DNA from: Aporhodopirellula rubra | Lineage (GTDB): Bacteria > Planctomycetota > Planctomycetia > Pirellulales > Pirellulaceae | Direction of reading: 5' to 3' | Length of the DNA: 64,000 nucleotides | Assembly (NCBI RefSeq): GCF_014192335.1 | Contig: NZ_JACHXU010000025.1 | Span: 1 to 64,000 of the forward strand | In this document: one piece after another, positions 7,087-62,300 of the stretch | How positions within the stretch are numbered: position 1 is the stretch's first letter | Layout: every line of letters begins with the position of its first letter | Notes under the pieces: model-generated | The model's input: the letters and a program-made list of their open reading frames with translations, nothing else | Database searches by the model: none | What the model was told of the DNA's origin: nothing | Made by a program: the position numbers and the translations under genes

Positions 7087-7226
7087 ACATCCGTATTCAC
7101 GTGCTACAGTTTTCCAGATGGCCAAATAGTGGGGTGGTCCGGACCGTTTGATCCCGGATCTCTTCTCCACCCCGATTTGACCGCGAATTCTATTCACCAC
7201 CGAGCCACCCCCTCCCGGCTGACTCC

Positions 7227-8279
7227 ATGACGAAACCTCACGACCCGCCCACAAACGGCGAATCGCACTCTACCGAGGCATCGGAAGAGGCGCTGCTGGT
7301 TGCCGCGCCGCCAACGGCGATGGGCGGCGCTCGGCGTGCGGTGCTTCGTGGACTCGGCGTCGTCCTGCCACCGCTGTTGACGATTGTGGTGTTGATTTGG
7401 GCATGGAACGCGATCGAAAACTACGTGTTGGCTCCGGTCGAGTCGGGCATCCGCCAAACACTCGTGTGGAGCCTCGCGGATATCCGTGAGACCGTTCCTC
7501 AGGGAGCACTGCGGGACCCGTTGCCGGAATTCAAGGACGCCAACAATAACAAGGGTCGTGGCTTCACCTATCAAGGTCTGTACTACGTTCCTGACCCGAC
7601 GGGCCGCCGATTCCTGCCGGGCTACGTCGTTCAAGAAGTCGATAACGAGATCGGTGAGTTCGGCCTCGGCGCGGTCGCACCTAATTCGGCGGCGGCGTAT
7701 TGGGACCGCTATGTGCAATTGAGATACATGCCGCGTTCGGTCGTGGTGCCGGTCTTCTTGATTGTATTTTTGTCGTTGTTGTACTTCCTCGGACGTTTGT
7801 TTGCCGGTGGGATCGGACGATGGTTCTTAAGCACCTTCGACGCGACGATTCTGCGTATCCCGATTGTCAATAAGGTTTACGGCAGTGTTAAACAGATTAC
7901 CGATTTCGCATTCGATGATCGGCAAATTGAGTTCAACCGTGTCGTCGCGATTCAGTATCCACGCGAAGGCATTTGGTCGCTCGGGTTTGTGACCGGAAAC
8001 AGCATGCGAGAAATTTCGGAAGCCGCGGGCGAACCGATGCTCAGCGTTCTGATGCCGACCAGTCCGATGCCGATGACCGGGTTCACGGTCACGGTCCGGC
8101 GTAGCGAAGCGATCGATTTGGACCTGACGATTGATGAAGCGATTCAGTTCGTGGTCAGTTGCGGGGTGGTTGTTCCGCCTCAACAACGCGTTGATGTACC
8201 CACCAAAGAATTGGCAGGCAAACCCGTCGTCAACGGAGCCAGCGTGAACGCCGGCATGGCCACACGCCAACCTCAATAA
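7227..8279 (+). CDS. DUF502 family integral membrane protein
   Basis: A 350-residue protein. The N-terminus is hydrophilic, a membrane segment lies around residues 45-65 (VVLPPLLTIVVLIWAW), and a second long one around 170-190 (VVVPVFLIVFLSLLYFLG). These are followed by the DUF502 core (IPIVNKVYGSVKQITDF; FVTGNSM; VLMPTSPMPMTGF). DUF502 proteins occur in many bacteria and in plants, but no biochemical role is established. About 120 residues between the two membrane segments form an unusual insert carrying a YYVPDPTGRRFLPGYV-like stretch. The DNA upstream to comF is short, so co-transcription is possible unless the 7035-7086 hairpin stops it. The start is ATG 7227, without a clear SD. Confidence 0.85.
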   Translation: MTKPHDPPTNGESHSTEASEEALLVAAPPTAMGGARRAVLRGLGVVLPPLLTIVVLIWAWNAIENYVLAPVESGIRQTLVWSLADIRETVPQGALRDPLPEFKDANNNKGRGFTYQGLYYVPDPTGRRFLPGYVVQEVDNEIGEFGLGAVAPNSAAAYWDRYVQLRYMPRSVVVPVFLIVFLSLLYFLGRLFAGGIGRWFLSTFDATILRIPIVNKVYGSVKQITDFAFDDRQIEFNRVVAIQYPREGIWSLGFVTGNSMREISEAAGEPMLSVLMPTSPMPMTGFTVTVRRSEAIDLDLTIDEAIQFVVSCGVVVPPQQRVDVPTKELAGKPVVNGASVNAGMATRQPQ

Positions 8280-57029: not shown

Positions 57030-58076
57030 TCAGTCCCAGTTCAGGCTGCCTGCGGATTGGTATTCCGTGACTCGGGTTTCAAAGAAGTTTTTCTCTTTTG
57101 CCAAATCCATCGTTTCGCTCATCCACGGAAACGGATTTTGCGATTCATATTGCTTGGCCAATCCGATGCGTTCTAGACGGCGGTCGGCGATATATTGGAC
57201 GTAGTCGCGGAACATCGATTCGTTGAGCCCTAAAATTCCACCGGGCAAACAATCGGCAGCGTACTCGATTTCTAACTCGACCGCTTGTTTGACTCGATCG
57301 ATCATCGCGACCTGGAATTCTTCGGTCCACAAGCCGGGGTTCTCGCTTTTGATGCCGTTGATCAGGTCGATGCCAAAGTTCAGGTGAATGGTTTCGTCGC
57401 GAAGGATGTACTGAAATTGTTCTCCGATCCCGGTCATCAAGTTCCGCCGGTGAAAGGACAGCATCATCACGAATCCCGTGTAGAAGAACACGCCTTCCAT
57501 GATTAGGTAATAACCGATCAAGTTTTTGAGAAACGTTTGTGCTCCTTCGTCCGTCGATGTGGTGAAGTTGGGATCGAGCACCTCAGCGGTGAGTTCGGTT
57601 TCAAACGCATCTTTGCGGGCAATCGAGGGGACTTCGTGGTACATGTTGAAGACTTCTCCTTCGTCGAGCCCAAGACTATCGACAACATAAAGAAACGTAT
57701 GCGAATGAACCGCCTCTTCAAACGCTTGACGTAACAGATACTGGCGGCATTCCGCATTGGTGACGTGTTTGAAAATCGCTAGCACAAGGTTGTTACCGAC
57801 TAAACTTTCAGCGGTCGAAAAAAAGCCGAGGTTCCGCATGATGACGTGGCGTTCGGGATCCGACAGTCGATCACTTCGCCACGTTTCGATGTCCTTGGTC
57901 ATCGGGACTTCCGTCGGCATCCAGTGGTTGGCGCATCCGTTTTGGTAATGCTCCCACGCCCAGTGATACTTGAGTGGCATGAGTTGATTGACGTCGACTT
58001 GGTTGCAGTTGATCAGTCGTTTTTGGGCGGCGGAAAATCGTTTGCTGGAAATTGCTGGGGTGGTTTGGTTGGTCAT
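57030..58076 (-). CDS. nrdB: Ribonucleotide reductase small subunit, class Ic type (Mn/Fe, Phe at radical site)
   Basis: A 348-residue ferritin-like R2 protein. Ligand positions: Glu 90 (STAESLV), Glu 121 and His 124 ([10 protein letters not shown]), Glu 194 (LIMEGVFF), Glu 228 and His 231 ([10 protein letters not shown]). The residue four after His 124 is Phe 128, not the radical Tyr. The first ligand is Glu, not Asp. This pattern, and segments such as [13 protein letters not shown] and GYYLIMEG, match the Chlamydia trachomatis R2, which uses a Mn(IV)/Fe(III) cofactor in place of a tyrosyl radical. Trp 52, Tyr 223 and Tyr 339 of its radical path are also kept. It forms an operon with nrdA. 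Confidence 0.96.
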
Positions 58077-58079
58077 CGT

Positions 58080-58361
58080 TTACATTCTCGGGTCGGTTGG
58101 GATCGGACAGGTCGACCGCGAACGAAGCCACACAGCCAGTGATAGCCGCGTGGGCAGTAGTTCGGGCCCGGATAAAAGTTCATCGTGTGCGGAAAGATGG
58201 GTCGCGAGAAAAGGGCCCTCTCGCGACGGTAAGTCGAACCCGCCTGCATCGGTCAAGACGATCAGACTTCCGTTGGGTTCGACCCGCTGCCAAGAACGGG
58301 CGATACCCGGCGTGTGCGTCAAGCTAAACGCCCGTTCGATCCAGTGGCTGTAGAATCGCAT
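58080..58361 (-). CDS. Small ORF between nrdA and nrdB
   Basis: A 93-codon ORF that fills the 300-base gap almost exactly: it begins 16 bases after the nrdA stop and ends 3 bases before the nrdB start, on the same strand. The composition is that of a soluble protein (SLIVLTDAGGFDLPSREG, LATHLSAHDELLSGPELLPT). No domain is recognised and the SD is weak. Its fit between two tightly linked genes favours a real gene. Confidence 0.5.
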   Translation of the reverse strand: MRFYSHWIERAFSLTHTPGIARSWQRVEPNGSLIVLTDAGGFDLPSREGPFLATHLSAHDELLSGPELLPTRLSLAVWLRSRSTCPIPTDPRM

Positions 58362-58376
58362 CGTGATCAGGCGACC

Positions 58377-61268
58377 TTACTGGCACGCTTCGCAATCAGG
58401 ATTGTTGACGTCACAAACCTGGGCGGGTTGTCGTTCGTGGGTGATCAAGTCAACATCGCTGCGGTCGATGCGAATTCCACTCGACTCACTCTGCGACTTC
58501 ATCCAGCGTGGTTGGATACCAAACCGATTCACATCTACGGTCGACTTTTCGACTTGGGTCGCCGCGAGCGAACGCAAGTAGTACGTCGTCTTGAGCCCCT
58601 TTTGCCATGCGGCCTGGTACATCGCGTCAATCGCTTTGCCACTCGGTGCGGAAAGGTACAAGTTCAGCGATTGTCCCTGGTCGATCCACTTTTGGCGACG
58701 AGCCGCGGCGGCAATCAACCATTGCGGTTCGATTTCAAACGCTGTGGCGAACAACCGACGGAGATGCTCGGGCATGATTGCGATCTCTCCTACCGCGCCG
58801 TCGTAGTACTTCAGTGCATCAACCATCTCGGCGTTCCAAAGCGAGTGTTCTTTGAGACAGTTGACCAAGGCCGTATTCACTTGAGTGAACTCACCCGACA
58901 GATTGCTCTTCGAGTAGAGCTGTTTGTAGGTCGGTTCGATCGACTGTGTTACACCGACGATCGTCGAAATGGTCGCCGTCGGTGCGATCGCTAAACAGTT
59001 GCTGTTTCGCATTCCGTTCTGGGCGATGGACTCACGTACAATGTTCCAATCGAGGGTGTTGCCTCGGTCGACATCGATCGGCTCACCGCGATGCTCAGCC
59101 AACAGATCGATCGTGTCGATCGGCAACAAACCGCAATCCCATTTGGATCCGGTGTAGGACTGATACTTGCCACGTTGTTTGGCCAGTTCGCTCGAAGCGA
59201 GGATCGCGAAATAGCTGATCGCTTCCATGCTCGTGTCGGCGAACGCGACCGCATCATCGCTCGCGTAGGGCATGCCCATTTTGTGTAAAGCGTCTTGAAA
59301 ACCCATCAGCCCCAAGCCGACCGGCCGATGACGTAGGTTCGCGTTGCGTGCTTCGGGAGTTGGGTAGAAATTGATGTCGATCACGTTGTCGAGCATTCTC
59401 ATCGCGATCTGTATCGTGTGTCGAAGTAACTCATGATCGAGCTGGCCGTCGACGATGTGAGCGCCGAGGTTGATCGAGCCCAAGTTGCAAACCGCGGTTT
59501 CCTCGGGACTCGTGTTGAGCAGAATCTCAGTACAAAGATTGCTGCTGTGAACAACACCGGCATGATCCTGGGGTGAACGAACGTTGGAGGGATCTTTGAA
59601 TGTCACCCAAGGGTGTCCGGTCTCGAACAGTCGCGTCAGCATCTTTCGCCATAGATCCGTTGCAGCAACGGTTCGATGCAGCCGCAGTTTTTCTTCTTTG
59701 GCATCCGATTCGTACTGCTCGTAGCGTGTCTTGAAATCGATTCCATAGGTGTCATGCAAATCCGGCACTTCGTCAGGACTAAAGAGTGTCCACGAGCCGC
59801 CGTCGCGAACCCGTTGCATGAACAAATCCGGAATCCACGCAGCGGTGTGCATGTCGTGCGTTCGTCGTCGATCGTCGCCGGTATTCTTTCGCAGGTCGAG
59901 GAATTCTTCAAAGTCCAGGTGCCACGGTTCCATGTAGGCGCACACGGCGCCCTTGCGCTTGCCGCCTTGGTTTACCGCGACGGCGGCGTCGTTGACGATT
60001 TTGAGGAACGGAATGACGCCTTGGCTTTTGCCGTTGGTGCCTTTGATCCGGGCTCCAGTCGCACGGATGTTCGTCCAGTCATTGCCGAGCCCGCCTGCCC
60101 ACTTCGACAACACCGCATTGTCACCGACCGATTTGAAGATGTGTTCCAAGTCATCTTGGACCGTGGTCAGATAACAACTGCTCAATTGCGGATTTTGCGT
60201 TCCCGAGTTGAACAGCGTCGGCGTGGCGGTCGTGTAGCGGAAACTCGACAGCAATTCATAAAACTCGATTGCCCGGCCTTCGCGATCGTCGGTTTCAGCA
60301 AGAGCCAGTCCCATCGCGACTCGCATCCAAAAATACTGCGGCGTTTCAATTCGTCGCCCGTCTTTATGAAGCAAGTATCGATCGTAGATAGTTTGCAATC
60401 CCAGATACTGAAACTGCGTGTCGCGCTCAGGCGACAATGCATCTGACAACCGCCGGAGGTCAAAGTCACGCAGTTCTTCCGACAATCGATCGCAGCGAAT
60501 TCCCTCGATGATGTAGTGTTCGAATTGTTCGTGATAGACGGATTTAAAATCATCGGAAAACGGGGATTTGCCGAGTGATTGTTGGTAGATGATCCATCGC
60601 TGCAGCTGCGCCGCGAGGGCATCGTATGCCGGGTCTCGCTCGATGCGACTGCGGGATGAGAGCACGAGGGCGCGAGTAATATCGCTGGGCGTCATCCCAT
60701 CAAATGCGCCGCGAATCACTTCGGCGATGATTTCGCTCGCGTCGATTTCGGGCAAGTGAGATTCGGGGCAACGCTCTAGGAAACGGACCAGACGATCAGG
60801 GTCAAACGGCACCCTCACGCCGGGTTCCAGCTCAACTTCGATACGGTTGGTGTTGGGCACCGCATCAATGCTGTCGAGCCCATGAACTTCTCCGCGAACT
60901 GCCCGGATGCGGGCGTGTTCGGTGCGATACAAGATATAGCGGCGGGCGACGCGGAAATGCTGTCGCTGCATCAATCCGATTTCAACGACGTCTTGAATCT
61001 GCTCGACGTTGATGGAGCCCCCTGGGCTTATCGAATCTCCCGAACTGATCGATTCGGCGAGTTCGGTCACTTGATCGATGATCGCCTCGATATCGCAATG
61101 GATCTCGGGTGGCAACGGTTGAGACTCTTCCAATGGCATCTCCGCCCGGAACGCTTTTTGGATCGCTAGTTGAATCCGCTCGCGGTCAAATTCAGATTCA
61201 CGTCCATCTCGTTTGCACACCATCCATGTGGAAGAAAGTGTGGATGTTTGTTCGGCCGTCCAACCCAT
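58377..61268 (-). CDS. nrdA: Ribonucleotide reductase large subunit
   Basis: A 963-residue R1. An N-terminal ATP-cone ([20 protein letters not shown]) is followed by a second cone-like region ([20 protein letters not shown]). The catalytic barrel has [11 protein letters not shown] and the finger-loop motif [16 protein letters not shown], then [18 protein letters not shown] and the radical-path Tyr pair TTYYLRS. A redox Cys tail ends in DCEACQ. Extended N-termini with extra ATP-cones also occur in chlamydial R1. ATG 61268 is the likely start; the frame is open to 61355. A cobalamin riboswitch lies 260 bases upstream in the leader. Confidence 0.95.
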
Positions 61269-61528
61269 GCCAATGTTTCCTATGATTGCGCACGCACCTC
61301 GCGAGTTCAACTTTGCAGGGCGATGCATCGGTTCGGCGGGTTCGCACAACAGCACACAACGGTGTTAACGGACAGTCGTCGTACAGTTAACGGGCTTGCT
61401 GGTGGTGCGGCGAACCGGCGTTTCATTGGTCAGCAAATCGCAGTCGATGCACAGTCGTATCGCACGAACCGGCATGAAGAAATTCGCTGCAACGTCCGCC
61501 CCAATCCGAGAGGGCACTCAACGTCTAT
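61269..61528 (-). other. Leader between the riboswitch and nrdA
   Basis: About 260 bases of 5' leader. I find no clear terminator hairpin with a U tract, so control may act on translation or via Rho. Nothing else is seen. Confidence 0.45.
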
Positions 61529-61734
61529 TTCGTGGTAGGTCTTCTGACTTACTGCCGTCCGATTTCCCGACCTTCTCGCCGAAATTTCTCGGCAATGGCC
61601 TTTCAAAAGAGAAAGGGAAATACGTTTCGGATGCCGTAGCACCCGGGGCAGTTCACAGCGGCTGGACCATCCCGGAATTTCACCGGAGTTCCCTGTTCAC
61701 CTGCTCACAAGAATTGCTAGCAAGTCACCACGAA
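61529..61734 (-). promoter_or_regulatory. Cobalamin riboswitch upstream of nrdA
   Basis: On the minus strand the conserved core is plain: GGTGAA with the AATTCCGG region, then CCAGCCGCTGTGAACTG, and the B12-box end GGCAGTAAGTCAGAAGACC. A closing helix P1 pairs TTCGTGGT (61734-61727) with ACCACGAA (61536-61529), eight perfect bases. The total is 206 bases. Adenosylcobalamin binding would repress the class I nrd genes, as known for class Ia nrd in Streptomyces. Confidence 0.93.
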
Positions 61735-61823
61735 CGGGCGAAGTATTGATTAACCGACGCGGATTGTCAACGCGAAGTCGACGAAGTTTGATTTCGGGCA
61801 AAGCAAGCTGAATCGGGTCTGCT

Positions 61824-62300
61824 TCAGATTCCGCCGGTGCTGGTCTCCGCCGGTTGCAGAAACCGTAAATGATGCGCCGCGTGGCAGGTGTGGATTCGTT
61901 CGATCATTTCGCGTGATTGTTGGCCGAACGCGGGGTGCGGTGCGTAGTCACCGGCGTGCGCGTGGAAACGCTCGACACTCGCCACAAAGCGTTCCACTTC
62001 CGCCGCGTCGTCCACCTCCGCGGGCGGAACAAACATCGATGCCGTGCGAATGCCGCGAGGCGAATCATCGCTGAGTACTTTCGGTAAAAGCAGCCGACGC
62101 ATTACCGGACGCATGAATGCGAACAACGACATCCATTTGGGATAACCGTCCACACTCGGGTCTTGCACCAAAATCAAATGACGGCAAATTTGACCGAGCG
62201 ACCAATTGCCTTGACGCGTGTAACCGCTGCGCAGTAACTCGCGGGTCTCGGCAACGGCACCGTCTAAGTCATCGAATTGTAGTATTCGTAGCTCGCTCAT
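61824..62300 (-). CDS. DUF1569 (DinB-like) protein
   Basis: A 158-residue helical-bundle protein with the DUF1569 pattern: GNWSLGQICRHLILVQD near the N-terminus and HTCHAAHHLRFLQP at the end. The three spaced His suggest a metal site as in DinB/YfiT proteins, which are thiol-transferase or hydrolase-like. It overlaps the upstream oxidoreductase by 4 bases (ATGA), so they form an operon. Its substrate is unknown. Confidence 0.85.
   Translation of the reverse strand: MSELRILQFDDLDGAVAETRELLRSGYTRQGNWSLGQICRHLILVQDPSVDGYPKWMSLFAFMRPVMRRLLLPKVLSDDSPRGIRTASMFVPPAEVDDAAEVERFVASVERFHAHAGDYAPHPAFGQQSREMIERIHTCHAAHHLRFLQPAETSTGGI

Follow-up and report, generated by a model that had tools for sequence, protein, structure and literature searches.

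A putative cobalamin riboswitch ahead of a class Ic ribonucleotide reductase operon in Aporhodopirellula rubra and related Planctomycetota

Organization of the nrdA-nrdB locus and its aptamer

The window (the whole stretch of Aporhodopirellula rubra DNA that was analysed, 64 kb in length) carries an nrdA-(93-aa ORF)-nrdB operon on its minus strand. The product of nrdA (58377..61268) is the large subunit of a class I ribonucleotide reductase (RNR) with an ATP cone and matches the NF005544 family with 1388 bits (cut-off 965). Its likeliest start is the ATG at 61268, with AGGA located 9 bases ahead; the GTG of the longest ORF, farther upstream, is the less likely choice. The protein start given by the ATG, MGWT, is also used in the nrdA genes of Rhodopirellula solitaria and one further genome (G025). 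The 93-aa ORF (58080..58361, minus strand) has no match in Pfam or NCBIfam; its counterpart in R. baltica encodes 94 aa (L183, around 7130-7414). The third gene, nrdB (57030..58076, minus strand), encodes a small subunit that is closest by alignment to the Chlamydia trachomatis R2 protein 1SYY (579 bits), and the position of the radical Tyr is occupied by Phe128, which aligns with Phe127 of C. trachomatis. Thus, judged by its sequence, NrdB is a class Ic, Chlamydia-type R2, for which a Mn/Fe cofactor is predicted. Both the class I operon, with its genes real and co-oriented, and the class Ic small subunit had been proposed in a first-pass annotation of this DNA, and both hold.

The same annotation had placed a complete B12-riboswitch core with an 8-bp P1, oriented into nrdA, ahead of the operon and had suggested searching the window with the Rfam cobalamin model. 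This search (cmscan, Rfam 15) returned a full-length match to RF00174 (Cobalamin, model positions 1-189 of 189) at 61517-61747 on the minus strand, which scored 75.9 bits, well above the gathering score of 31.5 (E 6.3e-17), and was the sole Rfam match anywhere in the window. The aptamer lies upstream of nrdAB, on the same strand, and points into nrdA. Its P1 strands, UUCGUGGU (61727-61734) and ACCACGAA (61529-61536), form exactly 8 base pairs, and the span originally given for the element, 61529-61734, runs exactly from P1 to P1, so that the description of the core, the helix and the orientation is borne out. The B12 box AAGUCAGAAGACCUACC lies at 61534..61550 (minus strand), and its AGACCUACC portion was found again in nearly all riboswitches of the same type. 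The P5/L5 hairpin CCGGUGAAAUUCCGG (61672..61686, minus strand) is a candidate kissing partner of L13. The aptamer is predicted to bind a corrinoid. Some variation was seen among related aptamers: in one genome (L014 411-687, G025), the L5 loop contains a short extra hairpin-like insertion; in another (G021:C2:175381-175766), two cobalamin matches are adjacent, the second below the cut-off, which is possibly a tandem riboswitch; and in MAG RI_55 (L175 5334-5505), a second cobalamin riboswitch-like match lies ~3 kb downstream of the one preceding nrdA.

Features flanking the aptamer

A scan of 61200-61900 for promoters revealed one site, beside the aptamer: a sigma-70-like TTGACA-17-AATACT at 61742..61770 on the minus strand, with 10 of 12 matches. 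From this promoter-like site, a transcript would start near P1. All 12 nrdA riboswitches that were compared have a TTGAC hexamer at -22/-23 relative to the aptamer match.

Directly past P1, at 61491..61525 (minus strand), lie the P13/L13 hairpin and an outer helix, GACGUU-GAG-UGCCCU-CUCGGAUU-GGGGCG-GACGUU. P13 has 6 pairs and an 8-base loop, and the outer helix has 6 pairs and a 3-4 base bulge. Across 23 sequences, 97.1% of the cells of the two helices were paired, and changes on both sides occurred in 7 of the 12 pairs, a count reached by none of 500 shuffles; in the window and in a second locus of the same genome (contig C37) the bulge has 3 bases, and the outer helix is one column off register in this count. 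The covariation of P13 spans genera, and hairpins resembling it are found after most of the family's cobalamin aptamers, regardless of the downstream gene. Most sequences have complementary L5 and L13, but loops re-paired at random did equally well, the loops being too conserved, and the L5-L13 contact received no support from covariation, nor was P5/L5-L13 pairing singled out. A kissing contact between the two loops is proposed as a putative feature.

The remaining leader (61269..61490, minus strand) includes a Shine-Dalgarno AGGA at 61278-61281, and the nrdA start codon lies ~248 bases beyond the aptamer. The lack of a clear terminator in the leader, pointed out in the first-pass annotation, was seen again in our scan of the minus strand over 61200-61900, which found no terminator-like site. 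Past P13, the leader sequence is not conserved among relatives, and its predicted folding was no better structured than that of shuffled sequences. The distance from aptamer to start codon is ~170-450 bases in nrdA riboswitches; in riboswitches preceding TonB-receptor genes, the aptamer ends only ~5-50 bases ahead of the start codon, a spacing that fits translational control at those loci. NrdR is encoded in the window's genome; the NrdR-box pattern had no site in the leader and one chance-level site at 60927.

NrdJ and the distribution of the riboswitch among relatives

Is there a B12-dependent enzyme for such a switch to favour? The genome to which the window belongs (8.5 Mb, 75 contigs, ~100% complete) was searched with protein families to judge gene presence and absence. 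On contig C1, it encodes a class II NrdJ of 1051 aa (NF005122, 1427 bits, cut-off 859) with the Pfam class II N-terminal and TSCPD domains; this is the one other RNR besides NrdAB, and a class II enzyme had indeed been predicted from the window. The family searches did not find CobS and gave only a sub-threshold match for CobJ/CbiH, so cobalamin is probably imported. By these two marker families, the genome apparently lacks a detectable full de novo cobalamin pathway.

Two overlapping samples of relatives were examined. Class I nrdA was present in 34 of the 100 genomes of the family sample, and a cobalamin riboswitch was located ahead of it in 12 (10 directly; in G086 and G025, other genes intervene). 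All 12 possess nrdJ, the second RNR of G081 being in pieces. Another four genomes carry nrdA and nrdJ without a riboswitch ahead of nrdA, in two the second RNR is a different one, and among the 16 genomes with nrdA only, none has a riboswitch ahead of it. The second sample comprised 50 genomes reached via NrdA in GTDB species; 20 had the riboswitch before nrdA, directly or a few genes upstream, and nrdJ was found in all 20 (in three as fragments only). The carriers include Aporhodopirellula aestuarii, R. solitaria, R. baltica BR-MGV, strain K23_9, Planctomycetales bacterium 10988 and Schlesneria MAGs. Among the 30 genomes without the riboswitch, in most of which the scan covered 2.5 kb upstream of nrdA, nrdJ was clear in two, both Blastopirellula, and doubtful in two more.

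With kinship ignored, the association of riboswitch and nrdJ gave a Fisher p of 5e-12, or 2e-10 if the two doubtful fragments are counted. In the NrdA tree, however, the carriers form one clade plus two distant MAGs; four independent changes were counted, and not one of them ran against expectation (sign test p 0.125). The association is thus not significant after correction for kinship, as it largely reflects one clade, and the data are suggestive of correlated evolution of riboswitch and nrdJ. Genomes with nrdA and nrdJ but no riboswitch near nrdA include G018, G080, G047 and G093, in addition to Blastopirellula. In two of these (L063 of G018, L056 of G080), a cobalamin riboswitch precedes a MetE-like gene (B12-independent methionine synthase, by eye), which follows the same isozyme logic as at nrdA.

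A predicted OFF switch for the class Ic enzyme

Taken together, these data make it highly probable that the cobalamin riboswitch is an OFF switch for the class Ic nrdA-(93-aa ORF)-nrdB operon. Transcription would begin at the aptamer. When cobalamin is plentiful, the aptamer would bind its ligand, most likely adenosylcobalamin, as this is the cofactor of NrdJ, and the bound form would stabilize P13 through the L5-L13 contact. By analogy with known nrd systems, we infer that cobalamin represses nrdA; lowered nrdAB would then leave the B12-dependent NrdJ to supply deoxynucleotides, and when imported B12 is short, nrdAB would be expressed and DNA synthesis would continue without B12. Since no intrinsic terminator was found, shut-off across the ~220 further leader bases would most likely be Rho-dependent or exerted by long-range translational control.

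The long leader, non-conserved past P13 and with no recognised expression platform, could also belong to a degenerate, non-regulating aptamer bypassed by a second promoter, a reading with which the presence of NrdR in the genome also agrees. We regard this as very unlikely: the core, P1 and P13 are intact, P13 covaries across genera, the only promoter in the scanned interval lies at the aptamer, and the leader contains no NrdR box, the site at 60927 being at chance level. An opposite sign of control, in which plentiful cobalamin raises nrdAB, has a precedent in the activating cobalamin riboswitch of cobT in A. halodurans (PMC10653944), but that switch works by mutual exclusion of P13 and a terminator, which was not seen here; moreover, physiologically there would be little point in B12 turning on a B12-free enzyme, and the nrd riboswitches known so far turn expression off, so that this reading is scarcely credible.

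It is also conceivable that the OFF switch acts through an upstream ORF, with P13 hiding the ribosome site of a UUG-start uORF just past the hairpin. In nrdA riboswitches of the same type, a TTG lies 6 bases past the GGGG (or GAGG) of P13, and a role for uORFs in modulating B12 riboswitch genes has been described in Mycobacterium tuberculosis (PMC11260477). The TTG, however, shares bases with the last part of the covarying outer helix, and relatives in which this helix differs in sequence (L068, L069, L085, L086) have lost it; the predicted uORFs range from 2 to hundreds of codons. As the TTG is tied to the covarying helix, a uORF starting from it was rejected as the main reading, and we consider it highly improbable.

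Relation to known systems

The circuit itself is known. The nrdABS operon of Streptomyces coelicolor has a cobalamin riboswitch through which adenosylcobalamin represses (Borovok et al. 2006, as cited in PMC4991794). S. coelicolor resembles the window in having a cobalamin aptamer before a class I RNR operon and a class II NrdJ in the same organism. The Streptomyces analogy originally drawn for this locus is apt, and it fits the finding that relatives with the riboswitch also have nrdJ. The two differ in that S. coelicolor belongs to the actinobacteria and its nrdAB is class Ia and accompanied by a regulator gene, nrdS, whereas the window comes from the Planctomycetota and has a class Ic enzyme and a 93-aa ORF; in addition, no de novo B12 pathway was detected here, and repression is a prediction. 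Cutibacterium (Propionibacterium) acnes likewise has riboswitches before its B12-independent RNRs, nrdAB and nrdDG, with nrdJ elsewhere, and much of the nrdAB transcription ends ahead of the first gene; unlike at the window, an NrdR box lies across the promoter of nrdAB, and B12 synthesis genes are expressed (PMC3848588).

The metE riboswitches of M. tuberculosis (PMC11260477) and P. megaterium (PMC10653944) control a different gene but follow the logic proposed here, in which B12 shuts off the B12-independent isozyme, and also have P13/L13 between aptamer and gene; P. megaterium metE has an intrinsic terminator, whereas none was seen at the window. Among planctomycetes, the B12 requirement reportedly varies with the RNR carried: Planctopirus limnophila is reported to rely on NrdJ and to need B12, whereas strains with NrdAB do not (PMC12639061, PMC10509075). 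In species with both enzymes, control of the B12-free RNR by a riboswitch would explain how one or the other is chosen. No paper linking this circuit with Planctomycetota or a class Ic RNR was found in the literature consulted, which is weak evidence, the papers being mostly non-subscription ones. New here are the phylum, the class Ic enzyme, the conservation and the candidate B12-scavenging neighbours, and the Streptomyces circuit would thus extend to Planctomycetota and to a manganese/iron RNR.

A possible link with B12 scavenging

In R. baltica BR-MGV, a whole-genome search located the riboswitch on the strand of nrdA, ~3.6 kb ahead of the gene. The order there and in G118 and G025, all on one strand, is riboswitch, PEP-CTERM, DUF1289-DUF1559, DUF4465 PEP-CTERM and then nrdA, with a DUF6580 membrane protein just before nrdA in two of the three; the first reading frame after the riboswitch of R. 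baltica BR-MGV was not found in one piece from its start, and the domains of the G118 proteins were assigned from their resemblance to those of G025. DUF4465 proteins bind B12 (PMC13398666), and structurally solved relatives were found. Cobalamin riboswitches also precede DUF4465 genes at the B12 loci of Bacteroides thetaiotaomicron that carry BtuG, BtuH and BtuJ (PMC8941943, PMC13398666), but the planctomycete proteins differ in their PEP-CTERM anchors, in their DUF1559/DUF1289 neighbours and, in some species, in their position ahead of nrdA. The window's own genome has PEP-CTERM, DUF1559-like and DUF4465 genes under a separate riboswitch on contig C37.

The riboswitch-preceded DUF1559/PEP-CTERM/DUF4465 genes are likely an uncharacterised planctomycete set for B12 acquisition, and the regulon points to candidate B12-uptake genes. 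There is about an even chance, in our estimate, that in Pirellulaceae a single cobalamin-riboswitch regulon joins B12 scavenging (DUF4465, partner PEP-CTERM, DUF1289-DUF1559 pseudopilin-like and DUF6580 proteins) with B12-free synthesis of DNA precursors. In an aptamer tree of low resolution, the window aptamer groups with other nrdA aptamers, amid those of DUF1559/PEP-CTERM operons. It is possible that the window's riboswitch-nrdA unit arose from such an operon once the intervening genes were lost. Across the family, most cobalamin riboswitches (L039 on contig C37 and L040 on contig C13 of the window's genome, and L043-L102) precede DUF1559 pseudopilin-like genes (~38 loci) and PEP-CTERM genes, some with DUF4465.
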